A stretch of 40,771 bases of DNA from a virus. Of this stretch, positions 5,484 to 36,189 are shown piece after piece. The DNA lies in IMG/VR virus record IMGVR_UViG_3300008107_005178, positions 1 through 40,771 of that record. One strand, written 5' to 3'. The notes under the pieces were generated by a model. That model was not told where the DNA came from. It did no database searches and saw nothing but the letters and a program-made list of their open reading frames with translations. A program made the translations under genes and the position numbers. The stretch's first letter is position 1. Each line of letters opens with the position of its first letter.

Positions 5484-6041
5484 ATGAAAACAGTTGGACA
5501 TAAACTAGAAAAATTTGCAGTAACAGGTGTTAAGCCAGGACAACCAGAAGATGCTTTCTTTGAAATTACAGATGAATCATTTGCTGGTAAGTGGAAAGTA
5601 ATCGTTTACTATCCAAAGGACTTCACATTCGTTTGCCCTACAGAGATTGTAGCCTATGACAAACTAGCCAGTGACTTTGCTGATCGTGATGCAGTGTTGC
5701 TAACAGGTAGTACAGACAACGAGTTCTGTAAAGTTAGCTGGCAAAATGCACACGCTGATTTGAAGAAAATTACTCACACTCAGTTTGCTGACACACAGCG
5801 TTGGAATGATGAGACTATGGAAGACTTGAGTCTAATTAATCAGCTTGGTGTATTCTATGCGCCCGCCGGAGCAGCTCTTCGTGCTACTTTTATTGTTGAT
5901 CCTGATAATGTCATTCAGCACGTTACTGTCAACAACTTGAACGTTGGTCGTAGCCCAGAAGAAACACTTCGTGTACTAGACGCATTGCAAACTGGCGAGC
6001 TATGTGCGTGTAACCGTACAGTAGGCGGAGAGACTTTATAA
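5484..6041 (+). CDS. ahpC: Alkyl hydroperoxide reductase AhpC (2-Cys peroxiredoxin)
   Basis: The 185-residue peroxiredoxin has the peroxidatic Cys51 in FTFVCPTE and C-terminal resolving cysteines in GELCACNRTVGG. It reduces H2O2, organic peroxides and peroxynitrite. The C-terminus and the adjacent ahpD match the AhpC type recycled by AhpD instead of AhpF. AAGGAG is well placed before the ATG. The stop overlaps the start of ahpD by one base (TAATG). In a phage it would shield the infected cell from oxidative damage. Confidence 0.95.
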   Translation: MKTVGHKLEKFAVTGVKPGQPEDAFFEITDESFAGKWKVIVYYPKDFTFVCPTEIVAYDKLASDFADRDAVLLTGSTDNEFCKVSWQNAHADLKKITHTQFADTQRWNDETMEDLSLINQLGVFYAPAGAALRATFIVDPDNVIQHVTVNNLNVGRSPEETLRVLDALQTGELCACNRTVGGETL

Positions 6042-6547
6042 TGGCATTCATCGACGCTATCAAAGAAGCGTTGCCAGACTACGCAAAGGACACTAAGTTA
6101 AACTTGGATGCAGTCCTTTTGCGTAGTACATTAGATGCTGATGTGGCCATGGGTTGTGCTGTAGCCGCGTTGGCCGCAACTGGTAACGGTAAGGTACTGG
6201 CTGTATTACTAGCTGATGCTCCTGTTCACGCAGATTCAGCAATGACAGCCGCAAGCATTATGGCACAGAACAATGTATGGTATCCATATATTGAAATGGC
6301 TGATGATCCTGCTCTTAAAGGATTGCCAGCACAGTTACGTATGAATGCTATCGCTAGTCATGGTGGAACTACAAAGTCAAACTTTGAAGCATTTAGTTTG
6401 GCAGCTAGTATTGTTGGCAAATGTCACTTTTGTGTTAAGGCACACTATGAAACATTGAAGACAGAAGGCTACACTGTAGAGAACTTACGTGACATTGGAC
6501 GTATTGCCAGTGTAATGAATTCGGTTGCTAAGGTATTGAATAGTTAA
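6041..6547 (+). CDS. ahpD: Alkylhydroperoxidase AhpD
   Basis: The 168-residue protein has the catalytic CHFCVKAH motif (Cys128, Cys131, His135) of the carboxymuconolactone decarboxylase/AhpD fold. The length is close to that of mycobacterial AhpD. It regenerates AhpC by thiol-disulfide exchange. Translation is coupled to ahpC by a TAATG overlap. The pair forms a self-contained peroxide reductase needing only a lipoamide-type reductant from the host. Confidence 0.93.
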
Positions 6548-6791: not shown

Positions 6792-7676
6792 ATGCTAAAA
6801 ACTTATCGCTCTATTTTTATTAGTGATGTACATTTAGGAACACGCGACAGTAAAGCTGAACAACTCAACAACTTTCTCAAACATAATACATGCGAAACAC
6901 TTTATCTAGTAGGAGATATATTAGATGTGTGGCGCATACAACAAAACAAATGGCGTTGGAAGCAAAGTCATACCAACGTTGTAAGACGTATACTTGGACA
7001 CGCTAAACGTGGCACACGAGTAATCTACGTAGCAGGCAATCACGATGAATTCTTAAGACCACTCATGCCATACGGTATTAACTTTGGCAATGTAGAAGTG
7101 GTTAATCAATTTGAACACATAGGTGTAGATACTAAACACTATCTAGTCACACATGGCGACTTGTTTGACGGTATTACTCGTCTTGCACCTTGGATAGCAT
7201 TTTTAGGTGACAAGGCCTATGACTTTATCTTATCCGCTAACAGTAAGTTCAACTGGCTCCGTCACCGTATGGGGTTTGGTTATTGGAGTTTAAGTAAGTA
7301 TCTTAAGAGCAGAGTAAAGAAAGCAGTAGACTTTATATTCCAGTTTGAAAAGAATCTAGTGGTATACTGTAGGAAACGTGGATTTGATGGTGTTATATGT
7401 GGGCATATACATCACGCAGAGATTAAAGAAATAGACGGTATCATTTATATGAACGATGGTGACTGGGTTGAAAGTTGTACAGCACTTGTAGAACATCATG
7501 ACGGTCGATGGGAAATAGTAACTTGGACTAGAGAGAGCGATGATGTGGATACTGATCCTAATAGCGGTACATATAAACAATCCAAAAGATCAACCCGGAA
7601 AAGTAGAGATAATGTTTCCGGATCAGCAAAGCTGCCAGAAGGCACTGAACACAATGACCTGGCAACTAAAGTTTGA
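6792..7676 (+). CDS. plcP: Metallophosphoesterase of the PlcP phospholipase C type
   Basis: The 294-residue protein carries the calcineurin-like blocks DVHLG, GDILD, GNHDE, THGD and CGHIHHA. The overall layout, including KAYDFILSANSKFN and GDWVESCTALVEH, matches COG2908 proteins often named UDP-2,3-diacylglucosamine hydrolase but shown in some bacteria to be PlcP. PlcP cleaves phospholipid head groups to diacylglycerol during phosphate starvation. The next gene is the matching glycosyltransferase, which favours PlcP over LpxH. No ribosome site precedes the ATG. A hydrophilic C-terminal tail of about 45 residues follows the domain. Confidence 0.85.
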   Translation: MLKTYRSIFISDVHLGTRDSKAEQLNNFLKHNTCETLYLVGDILDVWRIQQNKWRWKQSHTNVVRRILGHAKRGTRVIYVAGNHDEFLRPLMPYGINFGNVEVVNQFEHIGVDTKHYLVTHGDLFDGITRLAPWIAFLGDKAYDFILSANSKFNWLRHRMGFGYWSLSKYLKSRVKKAVDFIFQFEKNLVVYCRKRGFDGVICGHIHHAEIKEIDGIIYMNDGDWVESCTALVEHHDGRWEIVTWTRESDDVDTDPNSGTYKQSKRSTRKSRDNVSGSAKLPEGTEHNDLATKV

Positions 7677-7697: not shown

Positions 7698-8705
7698 ATG
7701 TCAAAAACAATCTTAATAGTCACAGACAATTTACCGGAGCAGATCAATGGCGTTGTCACAACATATAAAAATATTGAGGCTTGTGCGGTTTTGGATGGTT
7801 ATCGCGTTGTTTACATTACTCCCGGGGACTTCCGCTACTTTGATTGTCCTGGCTACAACGAAGTCAAGATTGCCTATCCAAGGGCGATGGGCAAGAAGAT
7901 TGAGGAGATCAATCCGGATTATATCCACATCGCCACAGAGGGTCCTATTGGTCTGTTTGCTAGAAAATATCTTTCAAAACATAATTATAGGTACAATACT
8001 GCTTATCATACTAAGTTCCCTGAAGGACTTAGAGCCCTATTTGGAATCCCTGAGGCAATTACTTGGCCTTTGGTAAGATGGTTTCACAAACATAGTGGTC
8101 GTGTGTTGACTACTACAGATACAATGGTTAAGGAGTTACAAGCACATGGATTTGATGGAGATGTTATCCCGTGGACTAGAGGTGTTGATCGTAGTATATT
8201 TTATCCTGGTCTCAGCCGCAACGCTGATAGGATTACTCTTGTATGCGTTAGTCGTGTATCTAAAGAAAAAACTCTCGAAGATTTTTTCCAATTAGACTAT
8301 CCTAGCGCACATAAAATTATGGTAGGCGATGGCCCTATGCTAGAAGAGTATAAGGAACTATATCCTAACGTAGAATTTGTAGGAGCCAAGCGTGGACAAG
8401 AACTAGGCGATTACTATCGTCAAGCAGATGTGTTTGTATTTCCAAGTAAGTGGGAAACATTTGGTTTGGTAATGATTGAAGCAATGGCTTGTGGAACTCC
8501 TGTTGCGGCTTATCCATGTCAAGGACCTTTAGACGTAGTTGACGAAGGCATTACAGGATGTATGAACGATGACTTAAAGCAGGCAGTCAAGGATGCGCTA
8601 ATGTTGGACAGACAGCGAGTTTGGGAAGGTAGTGCTCGTTGGACTTGGGAAAATGCTTGGGCTATTTTCAAAAATAATTTAGTAGATAAATCGGGCACAA
8701 GATAA
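7698..8705 (+). CDS. Family 4-type glycosyltransferase, Agt-like glycolipid synthase
   Basis: The 335-residue GT-B enzyme has an N-terminal acceptor domain (TDNLPEQINGVVTTYKN, then TEGPIGLFARKY and YHTKFPE) and a C-terminal nucleotide-sugar domain with VGDGPMLEEY and an E-x7-E block ETFGLVMIEAMACGTP. The layout matches the diacylglycerol glycosyltransferase (Agt) encoded beside plcP in bacteria that replace phospholipids with glycolipids. It starts 21 bases after plcP behind AAGGC, so the two form an operon: PlcP supplies diacylglycerol, this enzyme adds sugar. Confidence 0.82.
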   Translation: MSKTILIVTDNLPEQINGVVTTYKNIEACAVLDGYRVVYITPGDFRYFDCPGYNEVKIAYPRAMGKKIEEINPDYIHIATEGPIGLFARKYLSKHNYRYNTAYHTKFPEGLRALFGIPEAITWPLVRWFHKHSGRVLTTTDTMVKELQAHGFDGDVIPWTRGVDRSIFYPGLSRNADRITLVCVSRVSKEKTLEDFFQLDYPSAHKIMVGDGPMLEEYKELYPNVEFVGAKRGQELGDYYRQADVFVFPSKWETFGLVMIEAMACGTPVAAYPCQGPLDVVDEGITGCMNDDLKQAVKDALMLDRQRVWEGSARWTWENAWAIFKNNLVDKSGTR

Positions 8706-8790
8706 GGTGTCGCTGGAATTCGTAACCAGTAATTAATTTTACGATAGTGGATTAATGATATTCACTATGTACTTTATGGTAGTTTTACCG

Positions 8791-8829
8791 TATAATGTTT
8801 ATAAGTACTAATGCAATACAAGTACTTAT
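8791..8829 (+). promoter_or_regulatory. pqqA promoter -10 and leader inverted repeat
   Basis: TATAAT is at 8791-8796, with no good -35 at the usual spacing. Just downstream is a perfect inverted repeat, ATAAGTACT (8801-8809) and AGTACTTAT (8821-8829), with an 11-base loop. The repeat lies at the predicted transcript start, so it could be an operator or a 5' hairpin stabilising the short pqqA mRNA. The poor -35 suggests an activator. Confidence 0.6.
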
Positions 8830-8852
8830 TTTGTTAACAAAGGAGAACTACT

Positions 8853-8924
8853 ATGTGGACTACACCAACAGCAACTGATATGCGTTTCGGTTTTGAAGTT
8901 ACAATGTACGTAATGAATCGTTAA
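8853..8924 (+). CDS. pqqA: PqqA, precursor peptide of pyrroloquinoline quinone
   Basis: The 23-residue ORF starts MWTTPTATDMRFGFE and ends with VTMYVMNR. It matches PqqA in length, in the MW start, in R-x-G-x-E-V-T-x-Y spacing and in the terminal N-R. Glu15 and Tyr19 are the two residues cross-linked by PqqE to make PQQ. A strong AGGAG ribosome site sits seven bases before ATG, and a terminator follows. No pqqB-E genes are present, so host enzymes would have to process it. Confidence 0.92.
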   Translation: MWTTPTATDMRFGFEVTMYVMNR

Positions 8925-8942: not shown

Positions 8943-8974
8943 AAAACCGTTGTATTCGTACAACGGTTTTTTAT
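8943..8974 (+). terminator. Strong terminator after pqqA
   Basis: A perfect 12-bp stem AAAACCGTTGTA/TACAACGGTTTT with a TTCG tetraloop is followed by a T-run. It isolates pqqA as its own short transcript and separates it from the next promoter. Confidence 0.93.
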
Positions 8975-8977
8975 TGA

Positions 8978-9006
8978 TTGACAAAACCAGAACCTGATGC
9001 TATAAT
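8978..9006 (+). promoter_or_regulatory. Exact-consensus sigma-70 promoter
   Basis: TTGACA (8978-8983), 17 bases, TATAAT (9001-9006). It drives the SWIM-type protein gene and probably the small genes after it. The -35 starts within the T-tail region of the pqqA terminator. Confidence 0.93.
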
Positions 9007-9032: not shown

Positions 9033-9368
9033 ATGGAAGCAATAAAAGAAATAACTGATTGGGGTAAACATACTACTCCAAACCACACATATCTTTTGGA
9101 TGGTACCACATTGATTGCTTATATTAAGCAAGGTGACCAATCCCCATTCTTTTTTAAAAACGGTATCAAAAATTTTAGCAAAAGTGGACGCAAGTTCATT
9201 AAGGCAGACAAGAAACTGTTTGGCACAACAGCCAAAAGTGATTTGATTGAAGTTAACGGATCCAAAGGTAATGTTTACTTTGTGGATAAAGAAGCAAAAA
9301 CTTGTACGTGTCCTGGATTTACTTTCCGTGGATCGTGCAAACACATTGGAGAATTTTGTGGTCACTAG
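9033..9368 (+). CDS. Small SWIM-type zinc finger protein
   Basis: The 111-residue protein ends with a CTCPGFTFRGSCKHI segment, fitting the SWIM zinc motif C-x-C-xn-C-x-H. SWIM domains bind DNA or proteins. The N-terminal 90 residues form a beta-rich, lysine-containing region of unknown function. AAAGG supports the ATG. The next gene starts inside its last codons (GTG 9358). Confidence 0.75.
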   Translation: MEAIKEITDWGKHTTPNHTYLLDGTTLIAYIKQGDQSPFFFKNGIKNFSKSGRKFIKADKKLFGTTAKSDLIEVNGSKGNVYFVDKEAKTCTCPGFTFRGSCKHIGEFCGH

Positions 9369-13587: not shown

Positions 13588-13791
13588 ATGGTAACAGGAA
13601 AAGTAAAATGGTTTAACGATGCCAAAGGTTTTGGATTCATTACACCGGACAATGGCGGAGCAGACCTTTTTGCTCATTTCTCTCAGATCAATTCAAGTGG
13701 TTTCAAAAGCCTACAAGAAGGTCAGAGTGTAAGATTTGAAATCACGATGGGTATGAAAGGTGAGCAGGCTAGTAACATTCAGCCAGCTTAA
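13588..13791 (+). CDS. Cold-shock domain protein (CspA family)
   Basis: The 67-residue protein is a complete cold-shock domain: [15 protein letters not shown] with RNP1 (KGFGFI) and LFAHFSQI with RNP2. It binds single-stranded RNA or DNA and can act as an RNA chaperone or antiterminator. Its length equals that of bacterial CspA proteins. It is followed after a few bases by the acceptor piece of the tmRNA and may share its transcript. Confidence 0.95.
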
Positions 13792-13794
13792 AGA

Positions 13795-13859
13795 ATTGTT
13801 GTAATCCCTTCAAAGTGAAGGCATTCTGGACGCGGGTTCGACTCCCGCCAGGTCCACCA
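13795..13859 (+). ncRNA. ssrA: Permuted tmRNA: acceptor piece
   Basis: The end of this piece reads GGACGCGGGTTCGACTCCC followed by GCCAGGTCCACCA, nearly the same as the 3' end of bacterial tmRNA. CAGGTCC (13849-13855) pairs with GGGCCTG at 13949-13955, the 5' end of the coding piece, across the gap. A hairpin CCTTC/GAAGG lies upstream of the T-arm. Because the acceptor part precedes the coding part, the gene is circularly permuted and makes a two-piece tmRNA. The 5' boundary is approximate. Confidence 0.88.
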
Positions 13860-13872
13860 TAAGGAGACTGGT

Positions 13873-13947
13873 ATGAATGACAATCTAGGAGACCTAGCAA
13901 TAGGTGTAATAGTTGTACTCGTAATATTTGCTCTAGTCCTTTTATGA
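13873..13947 (+). CDS. 24-residue membrane microprotein inside the tmRNA intervening segment
   Basis: Between the CCA of the acceptor piece and the first base of the coding piece is an ORF with an AAGGAG ribosome site and ATG. The product begins MNDNLGDLAIG, continues as a single hydrophobic helix of Val/Ile/Leu, and stops one base before the coding piece. Whether it is translated before the intervening RNA is removed is unknown. Confidence 0.55.
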   Translation: MNDNLGDLAIGVIVVLVIFALVLL

Positions 13948-13948
13948 T

Positions 13949-14166
13949 GGGCCTGACATTGGTTTCGACAGGGTGAGATAATAGAGACGGCAACACAGTA
14001 GGCGATGACTGTAAATCAAGCAAAAATCGTAAATGCAAACGCAAATACAACCGAAGCAGAAGTAATGACTTTCGTCTGGGATCTTCCAGCTAACGAAAGC
14101 CGTTACGCTCTAGCAGCCTAAGAAACTGCACTTCCGGGGCATCTATGCCTTGTCAAATAAAATAGT
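13949..14166 (+). ncRNA. ssrA: Permuted tmRNA: coding piece with a 28-residue tag
   Basis: It begins GGGCCTGACATTGGTTTCGA, the conserved tmRNA 5' end, and contains a tag reading frame from GCA 14035 to TAA 14119-14121. The tag starts ANANTTEAE and ends ESRYALAA, so it carries the standard ALAA degron read by ClpXP. At 28 residues it is much longer than the 10-residue E. coli tag. No acceptor sequence follows; a terminator does. It works with the upstream acceptor piece and SmpB in ribosome rescue. Confidence 0.9.
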
Positions 14167-14193
14167 GAAAGGACCTTCGGGTCCTTTCTTTTT
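14167..14193 (+). terminator. Terminator of the tmRNA unit
   Basis: A 9-bp stem GAAAGGACC/GGTCCTTTC with a TTCG loop is followed by TTTTT. It ends the transcription unit holding the cold-shock gene and tmRNA. Confidence 0.93.
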
Positions 14194-21634: not shown

Positions 21635-22094
21635 CTTGGATATCACACAAAGCTTCTAACATTTTATAGTGATTGTATGCTTTTTGTAAAGCCTCAAATT
21701 TTTCTAATTTTTTTGGATCAGGAACTAGAATAGCCAAACGCTTTTCCATTGTTTCCATCCAAGTGGTTAGACTTTTACCTTTGAGTTTTACATCGCCATC
21801 AAAGTCGGCGTCACCCTTAACTTGTATACTTGGCGTGCCTATACCAGTGACTATGCCAGTGCCTGCAATGCCTGCACCAGTTGTCCAAGTGTTGTTACTA
21901 GTCAAATAAGAACCACTAGTTCCATTAGTAGTAAATGTATATGGACTACTATAAGTTGTTATTGGTGACGTAATTGACGTTGTACCACTACCAGTTAATG
22001 TGATAGTGTCTATGCCACTAGTTGACATAGTTGTGTCGTACGTACTATTATAACCGCCCAAATCGATAATATTTGTATCTAAAGTATTAGCCAT
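21618..22094 (-). CDS. Phage protein with Thr/Ser/Gly-rich repeat and helical tail
   Basis: The 158-residue protein has a low-complexity, beta-type N-terminal half (TLTGSGTTSITSPITT) and a conserved-looking C-terminal half VKGDADFDGDVKLKGKSLTT followed by a helix with MEKRLAILVPDP. The KGD...DGDV...KGKSL pattern looks like a short beta-roll that might trimerise; a fibre or virion role is possible. It overlaps glutaredoxin by eight bases. Confidence 0.65.
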   Translation of the reverse strand: MANTLDTNIIDLGGYNSTYDTTMSTSGIDTITLTGSGTTSITSPITTYSSPYTFTTNGTSGSYLTSNNTWTTGAGIAGTGIVTGIGTPSIQVKGDADFDGDVKLKGKSLTTWMETMEKRLAILVPDPKKLEKFEALQKAYNHYKMLEALCDIQDDPTE

Positions 22095-22329
22095 TTTCCT
22101 GTCCAGACTCTTCTAAATGTTTACGCAATTCTTGGAACCCTCCAATCAGTTGCTCACCTAAGAAGATCTGTGGAACAGTTCGAGCTGTAGGAACAGATTC
22201 TAATAAATCTTCTCGGGTATACCCTTCACCAATTTTTCGCTCCTCAAACTCAATACCTTTTTGTTTCAACAATGCCTTAGCCTGATCACAGTAGGGGCAT
22301 TGATTTTTACTCCAAACAATCGCTTTCAT
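22087..22329 (-). CDS. Glutaredoxin
   Basis: The 80-residue protein has the CPYC active site (NQCPYCDQAKALL), the TVPQIFLGEQLIGG cis-proline and glutathione-binding block, and the right length for a class I glutaredoxin. It donates electrons to ribonucleotide reductase, whose two subunits lie just upstream in the same block. Phage glutaredoxins commonly pair with phage NrdAB. Confidence 0.95.
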   Translation of the reverse strand: MKAIVWSKNQCPYCDQAKALLKQKGIEFEERKIGEGYTREDLLESVPTARTVPQIFLGEQLIGGFQELRKHLEESGQENG

Positions 22330-23649: not shown

Positions 23650-24305
23650 TTATAATTTCCTGACGCAAGTACAATCTTGCAAATATGTTCTAATCTTTCT
23701 ATGTGCTCATATGCACGCCACGGGCTTGTATCAATAGCAACTACTCCATGACCTTTAATGCCTACTATGTCATAGGCAATATTACCATCACGATCTAATT
23801 GCAAATTTTTATGACATTGATCAGCAAGTTCTTGACTGATAGGAGGTACATCTCCTACATTAGGTGCTACTTTGGTATAACGATTAAGTTCTGGAAAGGC
23901 ATTGCTAATGGTGCTGAGATCAATACCGGCATGCATTGCGGCAATACAGTATGTAGGATGCACATGAACTACCACACGTACTTCATCTTTGTGCTGGCCC
24001 ATTTCTCGTTGTAGTCCAAAGTGTAAAGGTAATTCACCACTTGGTCTTAGGTTAGCACTGATATCAGTATAAGGCAAGTCTCTCCAATTGTAGTTAAAAC
24101 TAGCACTACCACTACCACTTTGAATAGTTCTATCAATACTGATCTTTTTAAATTGATCAGGCTGTAGAGTTTGTTTACGCACACCACTAGGAGTGATATA
24201 AAAGTGATCACGGTCGTGGTGACGTATTGACACATTACCATCACGACTGGTAATCCAGTTGCGCTTGTAAGCATCTACCATTATGTCACAAATCGTTTCT
24301 AACAT
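23646..24305 (-). CDS. Class II aldolase/adducin family protein
   Basis: The 219-residue protein has the family's zinc and substrate blocks: SRDGNVSIR, ITPSGVRK, PSGELPLHF, VVHVHPTYC (two metal His) and IKGHGVVAI. Members act as fuculose- or ribulose-phosphate aldolases/epimerases or methylthioribulose-1-phosphate dehydratase. Which sugar phosphate is used cannot be told. It is inserted between nrdB and the superoxide dismutase gene with overlapping ends. Confidence 0.88.
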   Translation of the reverse strand: MLETICDIMVDAYKRNWITSRDGNVSIRHHDRDHFYITPSGVRKQTLQPDQFKKISIDRTIQSGSGSASFNYNWRDLPYTDISANLRPSGELPLHFGLQREMGQHKDEVRVVVHVHPTYCIAAMHAGIDLSTISNAFPELNRYTKVAPNVGDVPPISQELADQCHKNLQLDRDGNIAYDIVGIKGHGVVAIDTSPWRAYEHIERLEHICKIVLASGNYK

Positions 24306-24834
24306 TTATATGATCCCAGTTAATAATTTTCCATTGATTCTCTAAGTATTTCTTTTTGTCTGCTTGATAGTCTAATGCCCAGGCATGCTCCCACCAATCA
24401 ATCAACAATACAATATCTTTTTTAATTTCGTGATTCTTAATAGTTTTAATTTTGCCATCTCGAGCTAGATAAACCCATCCACTGCCTTGTATGCCCATTG
24501 CTACTTTGGCAAACTCTTCTTTAAACTTATCAAAAGATTTATAATGTTCTTCAATGAAATTTAATATGCCATCTTTTGGTTTGTTGTTGCTAGGCTTTTG
24601 ATATTGCTGAAACAAGATATTGTGTAGAAACACTCCTGCTTCATTAAACCTATCATCACCTTCGCCCTTGTTGTAACGTTCAGCGTATGTCTTGGCTAAT
24701 TTACCATAGTGATAGTTAATTGTATCTTCTGATATTGAAGGTACTAATGCGTTAGCATCATAAGGTAAACTTTTAATTTCTAACTTATCAGGCTTACCTT
24801 CTAGTAAGACATTTCTAATAAAACTATAGGTCAT
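24286..24834 (-). CDS. Iron/manganese superoxide dismutase
   Basis: The 182-residue protein has metal ligands in INYHYGKLAKTY, VFLHNILF and IDWWEHAWALDYQ (Asp and His), the Fe/Mn-SOD pattern. It converts superoxide to peroxide, which AhpCD in this window can remove. It is slightly shorter than typical SODs (about 192). Its placement inside the nrdA-nrdB operon fits protection of the oxygen-dependent tyrosyl radical enzyme; that link is inference. ATGA overlap with nrdA. Confidence 0.93.
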   Translation of the reverse strand: MTYSFIRNVLLEGKPDKLEIKSLPYDANALVPSISEDTINYHYGKLAKTYAERYNKGEGDDRFNEAGVFLHNILFQQYQKPSNNKPKDGILNFIEEHYKSFDKFKEEFAKVAMGIQGSGWVYLARDGKIKTIKNHEIKKDIVLLIDWWEHAWALDYQADKKKYLENQWKIINWDHINVRNDL

Positions 24835-27666: not shown

Positions 27667-29457
27667 TTAAAAGTCTTGATAACCAGAATCAATGGTTACT
27701 GTATAATTTATCGTTGCATTACCACCTGGACCGGCTGGATTGATATAACGTACTACTAGCGTAGGCTTAGTAGTCAATACTGGAGTTTTCACTCCACCAT
27801 TGTCAACAATCTGAATAGCAGTCATGTTTAACACAGTGGCAATGAATCTAATGTTGCCACCAATAGTTTGACCGTAAGTATCTGTTGGTCCAGTGTATGT
27901 AAAATTATCTGTAATAGAAGGGGTAATAGGACCAGATGTCATATCTGGATGTGCATTAACAACTATTTGTCCTACTCTATATAAAGTGCTTGAACCTTTT
28001 CTAATAGAATAATTAATTGTTAATTTAGTTGAGCCCCAGCATGGTGCTTTAACTAATATTTTTGGTGTAAGTTCTTGTGTGTTAAAAAATAGTGTAGTTG
28101 ACTTTGAACTGTACTGTACACTGTCAACTCCTAGTACGTCTGGTAGATATGCTACCATAGAACTATTCAATCCAGTTTTGTTTTGATCTAGATTGTTTAC
28201 GTCAATGCTACGTTGGAAGTAATCACCAACAGTGTCACACTCAGGAACTCTAAAATCAATAACAGGAGTTACTGGTTGACTTTGTTCTAAACTATTGTTA
28301 CCTACGTCTAAGTATGTGTTAGCAATACTTCTGTGTCCTTTACTAGATGCAGTAGCAAATACTTTAATTGCTTCTCCATCAATTTTGTCAAAAGTACAAT
28401 GCTCAACAGTATAGTATTGAGGGCCAGCACTTCTGCCTGTAATGTTTGTGCTATTCTTTGCTAAGGTGAATGCTCTATAAAGATTTTTAAAATAGCAATC
28501 TTTAAATTGAATGTTGTTGGTATCATAGTCACTGTACACAGCATGTGATACATTGCTAAACTCGCACTCTATAACTGTTACGTACTCACTTGTAACTGCA
28601 CCAATGCCTCTAAATTGAATAGCACTGCTAGCACCAAGTGTGTCTTCACCATCGTTGTTTTGCCACACTCCTTGGAATTTGCAACGTCTAATACTTGATT
28701 GAGTCAAGCAATCAAGTAGTGCAATAGGAGTATCTGTTTGACTACCGTCTTTTCTTTTAAAACTAAATCCAGATATAAAGACATTAGTTGGAGCAGTGTT
28801 GTCGTTGAAATCAATTGGACTACTATCCATTAATTTGTATACGCCTGGAGTACTATTGTTGGCTACTGTTCTTAACGTATTCTTAGTGTCAACGTCTTGC
28901 AGAATAATTGCTTTGTCAATGCCTTCTCCAATAAGAGTAGCATTAGATGGAATGTAAAGTTCACTGGTGATTTTATATGTGCCAGCTGGAAAGTACAAAG
29001 TACGTCTGCTTCTTACGGCAGTTTTGTTACTACTGTTTAAAAAGATTTGATCAATGGCTCGTTGTATCGCAGCCGTGTCATCTGTACCAACACCGTTTTC
29101 ATAATCACCTAATGCACCAAAGTCACGAACATTGACTATGTCGTCTAACTTTTGTTGCAGGCTACGTCCGTATGGAGTATTTGGGTTACTGCCAGTTTGT
29201 ACAATGCTATTACCATTGTTATCTAATTGATAACCTTGATAAGAGTACGCACCCAACAGATTAAAAATGTTGCTACGTTCTGTAAGTATTTCTGTATTGC
29301 CAACGAAAGGAGCACCTTCGCCCACACTACCATTACCAACGTATAATTGTTGTGTGTCTACTGCCCAGCCAAATTCTCCACCACTTAACTGTGGTAAATT
29401 GGTTTGACTCTTCTTGCCCCTACGAACTTGGATCTTCGATATCTGTACAACGGCCAT
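27667..29457 (-). CDS. Tail fibre / tailspike with pectate-lyase-type beta-helix
   Basis: The 596-residue protein has an N-terminal phage attachment module (KIQVRRGKKSQTNLPQLSGG, then GEFGWAVDTQQLYVGN), a start-of-helix block VNVRDFGALGDYENG with DDTAAIQRAID typical of pectate-lyase superfamily spikes, and a long Asn/Thr-rich parallel beta-helix. It probably binds or cleaves host surface polysaccharide. It is preceded by a GATAAATA late promoter. Confidence 0.9.
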   Translation of the reverse strand: MAVVQISKIQVRRGKKSQTNLPQLSGGEFGWAVDTQQLYVGNGSVGEGAPFVGNTEILTERSNIFNLLGAYSYQGYQLDNNGNSIVQTGSNPNTPYGRSLQQKLDDIVNVRDFGALGDYENGVGTDDTAAIQRAIDQIFLNSSNKTAVRSRRTLYFPAGTYKITSELYIPSNATLIGEGIDKAIILQDVDTKNTLRTVANNSTPGVYKLMDSSPIDFNDNTAPTNVFISGFSFKRKDGSQTDTPIALLDCLTQSSIRRCKFQGVWQNNDGEDTLGASSAIQFRGIGAVTSEYVTVIECEFSNVSHAVYSDYDTNNIQFKDCYFKNLYRAFTLAKNSTNITGRSAGPQYYTVEHCTFDKIDGEAIKVFATASSKGHRSIANTYLDVGNNSLEQSQPVTPVIDFRVPECDTVGDYFQRSIDVNNLDQNKTGLNSSMVAYLPDVLGVDSVQYSSKSTTLFFNTQELTPKILVKAPCWGSTKLTINYSIRKGSSTLYRVGQIVVNAHPDMTSGPITPSITDNFTYTGPTDTYGQTIGGNIRFIATVLNMTAIQIVDNGGVKTPVLTTKPTLVVRYINPAGPGGNATINYTVTIDSGYQDF

Positions 29458-35412: not shown

Positions 35413-36117
35413 TTATTGATTTTCAATACTTACTGTATCAGAAGTTGCAGAACCAAATGTCCACTTAACTTTTGCACCTGTTGCGAAATCTCCGTTATCA
35501 GAAACTTTTCTAGTTAAAACAGCCATACGTGATGTTAACTTTTGCACAAAATAAGCATTGCTATTAGCATCAGTTGCAGTGATACTCATTTCGTTAGCAC
35601 CCAAGGCGGCTGATTGTACTAGTTTGCAAACTGCTGTTCCATCACTAGTAGTGATTTTGTAACGCTTGGTACTAACTTGCTTAATAACGTTACCAGTTAA
35701 TACTTCTGAACCTTCTCCAACTTGCGCTTCACACTTAATGCTGTTTTGACGAGCACTTGCACCGCTTGTTAGAGCAACTGTAACGCCGCCACTACCGCTT
35801 GTTAAGCTAGCAGTTTCAGCGCCACCAGCTACAGTATCAGTAACTGTAATAGTTGGTACTGCTGTGTATCCAGAACCAGCACTAGTTATTGCAATGGCAG
35901 CGATATCACCATTGCCATCAATAGTAACTGTACCAGTAGCTGTTTGACCACCAGTTAATTGTGGCGCACTGAAAGTTACTGTTGCACCAGTATTCATACT
36001 AGCCGCGATTGGAGCGGCAATTGTTACACTTGCAACACCTTCACCACCAACGTTGGCAAAGCCAAAGTCTTGATAGTTTGTGTTAGCAAAATATTTTTTG
36101 TTTAATGGACGTCCCAT
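35413..36117 (-). CDS. Structural phage protein with bacterial Ig-type repeats
   Basis: The 234-residue protein begins MGRPLNKKYFANTNYQDFGF and is then Ala/Gly/Thr/Val-rich, with beta-sandwich-like repeats (VTFSAPQLTGGQTATGTVTI). ATG 36117 behind AAGGAG is chosen; the longer frame starts 20 codons upstream without signals. It is probably a virion surface or structural protein. Confidence 0.72.
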   Translation of the reverse strand: MGRPLNKKYFANTNYQDFGFANVGGEGVASVTIAAPIAASMNTGATVTFSAPQLTGGQTATGTVTIDGNGDIAAIAITSAGSGYTAVPTITVTDTVAGGAETASLTSGSGGVTVALTSGASARQNSIKCEAQVGEGSEVLTGNVIKQVSTKRYKITTSDGTAVCKLVQSAALGANEMSITATDANSNAYFVQKLTSRMAVLTRKVSDNGDFATGAKVKWTFGSATSDTVSIENQ

Positions 36118-36189
36118 TTGTTTCTCCTTAATTTGACGTTCTAGGTCTACGCTGTGGGTACAGCATAATACTTGCACCGTGCAAGTTGA

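Follow-up and report, generated by a model that had tools for sequence, protein, structure and literature searches.

A stand-alone pqqA gene in phages, a probable means of supplying methylotrophic hosts with the precursor peptide of PQQ

Results

Genes surrounding pqqA

The stretch of DNA analysed, hereafter the window, comprises the 40,771 bases of IMG/VR virus record IMGVR_UViG_3300008107_005178. This 40.8-kb virus contig encodes tail and virion proteins, a head-maturation protease, an exonuclease and phage-like NrdA and NrdB (ribonucleotide reductase), as well as four tRNAs, a class II aldolase and an Fe-S carrier. A permuted (two-piece) tmRNA of the betaproteobacterial type was located at 13756-14191 with Rfam models RF01850 and RF04321. 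On the minus strand, a match to the Rfam freshwater-2 RNA was found at 36115-36186, at the 5' end of the gene at 35413-36177. An oxidative-stress set is present in this one phage, consisting of the AhpC-like and AhpD-like genes (5484-6547) and of genes for an Fe/Mn superoxide dismutase and a glutaredoxin-like protein (24286-24834, 22087-22329).

The pqqA gene is located on the plus strand at 8853-8924, and its larger neighbours on the same strand were assigned with Pfam. Upstream are an AhpC-like peroxiredoxin (5484-6041), an AhpD-like protein (6041-6547), a calcineurin-like phosphoesterase (6792-7676) and, just before pqqA, a family 4 glycosyltransferase (7698-8705). Downstream follows a SWIM zinc-finger protein (9033-9368), whose relatives keep pqqA upstream, and synteny is also conserved on the other side, with pqqA downstream of glycosyltransferase relatives in many related phage contigs. 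The SWIM gene is preceded by a putative promoter at 8978-9006 (+ strand) with a perfect TTGACA-17-TATAAT arrangement. It differs from the pqqA promoter described below, hinting at different expression classes for the two genes.

The window belongs to a large T4-like phage, whose host is most likely a Methylophilaceae methylotroph. Two candidate host markers were rejected: the best matches of AhpC in a class-level sample pointed to no single family, and comparison of the tmRNA DNA with family and order samples gave short conserved stretches only, with no signal of the host at family level beyond the beta-type of the tmRNA.

The pqqA gene and its transcription signals

PQQ is built from the Glu15/Tyr19 pair of the peptide PqqA, which is consumed one for one per PQQ formed. 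The open reading frame at 8853-8924 encodes a 23-residue precursor peptide, MWTTPTATDMRFGFEVTMYVMNR, followed by a stop codon. The peptide matched the full Pfam PqqA profile PF08042 (positions 1-19; E-value 7.5e-10, 39 bits against a curated cut-off of 21.1 bits) and the NCBIfam profile TIGR02107 (37.9 bits, cut-off 20 bits), while the same search gave a Pfam PqqA match in none of 14 control genomes. Glu15 and Tyr19 are both present, as are W2, P5 and the R-x-G-x-E-V-T core, and the length of 23 residues and the E-x3-Y pair agree with what is expected of PqqA (about 22-29 aa). The window thus holds a genuine phage-borne pqqA at this position. The initial annotation had recognised the frame as PqqA with Glu15 and Tyr19 and had proposed alignment to PqqA profiles as a check; translation and both profiles bear it out. 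It had also noted that pqqB-E do not lie nearby, and indeed none of pqqB, pqqC, pqqD or pqqE was found in the 40,771 bases.

Judging from its flanking signals, pqqA is predicted to be transcribed on its own. The -10 element TATAAT (8791-8796), which shows little or no variation among 11 relatives, has no consensus TTGACA partner at -35. About 19 nt upstream of it, alignment of the 11 syntenic relatives revealed a conserved box, TAATGATATTCACTATGTA (8753-8771), of which the form common to the phage lineage of the window is TAATGATWTTCASTATRTR. Allowing up to three mismatches, this box has one match in the window (chance mean 0.32), and it occurs at 15 of 144 phage pqqA loci, all of them from the window's own lineage. 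A ribosome-binding site, AAGGAG (8840-8845), is placed 7 nt before the ATG and is invariant in the relatives. The gene is followed by an intrinsic terminator at 8943-8970, a 12-bp stem and a T tract, with a folding z-score of -5.2 (none of 200 shuffled sequences folds equally well). Terminator-like hairpins were found within 110 nt downstream of pqqA at 73 of the 144 phage loci, which are not all independent, compared with 5.9% of random positions. The -10 element, ribosome site and strong terminator had been pointed out before, and these positions and scores agree with that description.

A feature absent from the initial annotation is a leader hairpin at 8801-8829, with a 9-bp stem (ATAAGTACT/AGTACTTAT) beginning 4 nt after the -10 element; the 5' end of the transcript is expected at or near this position. 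All 11 syntenic sequences compared have a hairpin of 6-10 bp just downstream of the -10, and the stem shows compensating changes, TAAGTAC/GTACTTA in one group versus ACATAC/GTATGT in the other. Judged by folding energy alone, the leader hairpin of the window is not significant (z = -1.15), and a role in message stability is therefore a guess.

Distribution of pqqA among phages

When 50,697 phage records were searched with the peptide by tblastn, 12 matched, nine of them being Methylophilales phage isolates: P19250A (pqqA at 28085-28153), Venkman, MEP301, MEP401, MEP402 and four Melnitz. pqqA is therefore present in every Methylophilales phage isolate examined (n = 9), a tally that leaves out MEP431-434 (genus Pelagivirus), HIM624-A and Venkman EXVC038S. 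The isolate lineages are unrelated, with MEP401 and MEP402 belonging to the Zobellviridae and the four Melnitz phages to the Kyanoviridae. HTVC008M, a relative of Melnitz infecting SAR11, has no pqqA. At the position of the match, nothing is annotated in five isolates, and Melnitz and spring-water phage ctXG6705, which accounts for another match, have only hypothetical proteins on the opposite strand. Gene callers miss phage pqqA.

The last two matches are Acinetobacter records. Acinetobacter phage MD-2021a was rejected as a pqqA phage, since the full pqqABCDE in the record examined points to bacterial contamination; the sequence bearing this name (CAKLQF020000010.1) consists of bacterial chromosomal DNA that includes the entire pqqABCDE operon.

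Scanning IMG/VR with a DNA pattern yielded at least 120 contigs with pqqA, with clean 23-aa frames among the matches listed. Based on flanking genes, 144 phage pqqA loci could be sorted by heuristic clustering into 27 context clusters, 12 of which have more than one member. Among relatives of the genes neighbouring pqqA in the window, a glycosyltransferase-bearing group with contigs up to 367 kb, 17 of 85 loci contain pqqA. A search for the same locus in related phages, suggested by the initial annotation, thus recovered the gene from related and unrelated phages alike.

A scan of virus contigs with an alphaproteobacterial-type pattern (E-x-C-x-G-x-E-V-T core) returned four contigs only, L354 (265,895 bases), L355, L356 and L357, and no pqqB-E were found near the gene in the stretches fetched.

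Across 125 distinct 23-codon phage pqqA genes, pN/pS was 0.18, and W2, P5, R11, G13, F14, E15, T17 and Y19 were invariant. This invariance is partly a product of the scan pattern, which demanded W2, R11, G13, E15, V16, T17 and Y19; it did not demand P5, F14 or the surplus of synonymous changes. Identity to a sampled host peptide was found for 4 of 63 phage peptides, with the host sample drawn from a narrower pattern. By these comparisons, phage pqqA is under purifying selection and has kept its expression signals.

Copies of pqqA in the hosts

In a scan of genomes with the Methylophilaceae-type pattern, nearly all records returned were of Methylophilaceae or of related Betaproteobacteria. All 120 genomes from the family of strain LSUCC0665 (Methylophilaceae) contain pqqA, with 1-12 copies per genome (mean 4.2) and two or more in 113 of them. 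The phage gene thus has metabolic homologues in the presumed host family. By comparison, pqqE scored above its cut-off in all eight Methylophilaceae genomes tested and was single-copy in seven. In these hosts the gene for the precursor is multiplied and that for the modifying enzyme is not.

Most Methylophilaceae-type host copies also stand apart from the other pqq genes, 99 of 120 loci being without pqqB-E in the fetched stretch (at most 8 kb). The missing pqqB-E beside the phage gene are therefore ordinary. Their lack was ruled out as proof of viral origin, as orphan copies in the host look alike. That pqqA is carried on a genuine phage genome follows from the phage genes in the window and from its presence in purified isolates.

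Link to methanol dehydrogenase

Among the 45 phage contigs with pqqA that were tested, a single one, 72 kb long, encodes a PQQ alcohol dehydrogenase. The enzyme is XoxF-like, with XoxF as the best PDB match and a WDYDG motif, and its gene is followed by one for formate dehydrogenase alpha (FdhA). The NrdA of this contig is 81% identical to that of the window. In IMGVR_UViG_3300025120_009955 (L341:3989-8783, contig about 33989-38783), the gene for formate dehydrogenase alpha comes directly after that for an XoxF-like methanol dehydrogenase, with pqqA 3 kb further; DnaK- and GroEL-like genes are also found on this contig.

A search with this dehydrogenase recovered XoxF-like methanol dehydrogenases from five phage contigs. 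In the three longest of these (72, 104 and 23 kb), pqqA lies at about 0.2-6 kb from xoxF, in one case about 0.2 kb downstream; the two without pqqA are fragments of 17.7 and 11.4 kb. In the related contig L351, a gene similar to the phosphoesterase gene of the window sits between xoxF and pqqA, and in L351 and L352, both of them XoxF phages, an AhpC-like gene follows pqqA, as judged by sequence similarity. In the window itself, a 40.8-kb fragment, a methanol dehydrogenase was not seen. The link to this enzyme is strengthened by the XoxF-type dehydrogenase that relatives of the window phage carry near pqqA.

Discussion

The initial annotation knew of no established account of pqqA in phages. 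This did not hold: PqqA and methanol dehydrogenase were reported in 2020 from Lake Baikal in the T4-like VP_266, with Methylophilaceae as predicted host and the same role proposed (PMC7678222), and viral pqqA has been listed among phosphorus-cycling genes (PMC13188868, 2026). Phage pqqA is hence already a known kind of gene. In open papers on Methylophilales phage isolates, PQQ is not mentioned except once as a medium ingredient, at 1 nM in the published medium for strain H5P1. Within the open-licence literature, the presence of pqqA in all identified isolates, its breadth, its missed annotation, the argument from copy number and the phage with xoxF, fdhA and pqqA appear to be new.

We consider phage pqqA to be an auxiliary metabolic gene by which the PQQ pathway of the host is dosed with the substrate it consumes, with a probability of about 0.8. 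During infection, pqqA would be transcribed as its own short message from the promoter of the phage lineage, with the leader hairpin first and the terminator hairpin last. The peptide would be taken up by host PqqD and cross-linked between Glu15 and Tyr19 by host PqqE, after which a host protease, PqqB and PqqC would trim and oxidise it to PQQ. One extra pqqA gene could raise PQQ output; the higher PQQ flux through host enzymes that the initial annotation had proposed is an inference. The additional PQQ would keep methanol dehydrogenase running, and with it the supply of energy and formaldehyde during phage replication.

A limiting supply of PqqA is plausible, because the peptide is used one for one and the hosts have several pqqA and usually one pqqE. 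In Methylovorus MP688, PqqA availability is rate-determining for PQQ (Ge 2015, as cited in PMC11317620), and Hyphomicrobium, a PQQ producer grown on methanol, has five pqqA copies of which two are highly expressed (PMC9851590). According to Toyama and Lidstrom (1998), as cited in PMC11317620, pqqA is dispensable in M. extorquens, a species that has orphan copies. As the hosts already have several copies, the added effect of a phage copy could be small. Dosing with the substrate is nevertheless the simplest reading, since PqqA is consumed, is multiplied in the hosts and can be rate-determining, and since phages with a methanol dehydrogenase also add pqqA. Other explanations fit less well.

It is improbable that the peptide acts otherwise, be it as a decoy that ties up PqqD/PqqE and reduces PQQ in the host, or in signalling or a lanthanide-related function. 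An alternative role in lanthanide uptake has been raised for orphan pqqA genes (PMC11317620), and a decoy would likewise need the conserved residues that bind PqqD/PqqE. However, the Glu15/Tyr19 pair that is cross-linked does not vary in the 125 distinct phage genes, and relatives with their own methanol dehydrogenase near pqqA point to more PQQ and not less.

Somewhat less credible still is passive cargo, in which a tiny host gene present in many copies often enters phage genomes and persists there for some time without a role. Scattered stand-alone copies are plentiful in the hosts, and the distribution in the glycosyltransferase-bearing group is patchy (17/85). Against this stand the pN/pS of 0.18, the retained leader, ribosome site and terminator, the occurrence of pqqA in each of the nine identified isolates, which represent several lineages, and the small share of phage peptides matching sampled host peptides (4/63, with the narrower host pattern).

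Misbinning of bacterial DNA as viral, affecting either the contig or the stretch with pqqA, is suggested by the Acinetobacter records and by host copies lying mostly apart from pqqB-E too, so that the absence of these genes proves no viral origin; it is very improbable given the phage genes of the window and the synteny recurring in independent contigs, and is essentially refuted by the purified isolates.

Returning to pqqA as a source of substrate for host PQQ synthesis, Methylophilales phages probably top up the cofactor supply of their hosts. The chances are even that phages of PQQ-dependent methylotrophs have acquired substrate dosing repeatedly and use it in general. Nearly all methylophage lineages would then carry pqqA on its own, with XoxF and formate dehydrogenase as additions in some large T4-like members, and through these the virus itself would push the oxidation of methanol towards CO2 in the cells it infects. 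If the phage peptide becomes PQQ, pqqA would be among the smallest auxiliary metabolic genes known, bearing on a cofactor that bacteria abundant in lakes and oceans need to oxidise methanol. As cultured phage-host pairs exist, such as Melnitz or Venkman with OM43 strain H5P1 and P19250A with IMCC19250, a viral push on the flow of methanol carbon is directly testable.

The closest known case is VP_266, which resembles the window phage in being T4-like, in its predicted Methylophilaceae host and in encoding PqqA; as in relatives of the window phage, a methanol dehydrogenase is encoded as well. VP_139, related to VP_266, has a ribonucleotide reductase. Among the two populations, a class II aldolase was also reported. 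That report concerned one representative contig, without a survey or isolates, and states that P19250A lacks these genes, whereas P19250A was found here to encode pqqA (PMC7678222). The orphan pqqA genes of methylotrophs such as Methylovorus MP688 and Methylorubrum extorquens are similar to the phage gene in being single, located away from pqqB-E and encoding a short product of the same family, and they feed the shared PqqB-E pathway. Phage pqqA differs from these host copies by its location in phage genomes, its promoter region specific to the phage lineage and its peptides, which are mostly not identical to those sampled from hosts. Cyanophages carry auxiliary metabolic genes such as psbA. 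There, as proposed for pqqA, the virus supplies a fast-consumed component of host energy metabolism; psbA encodes a protein subunit that turns over, whereas pqqA encodes a peptide substrate that is consumed to make a cofactor.
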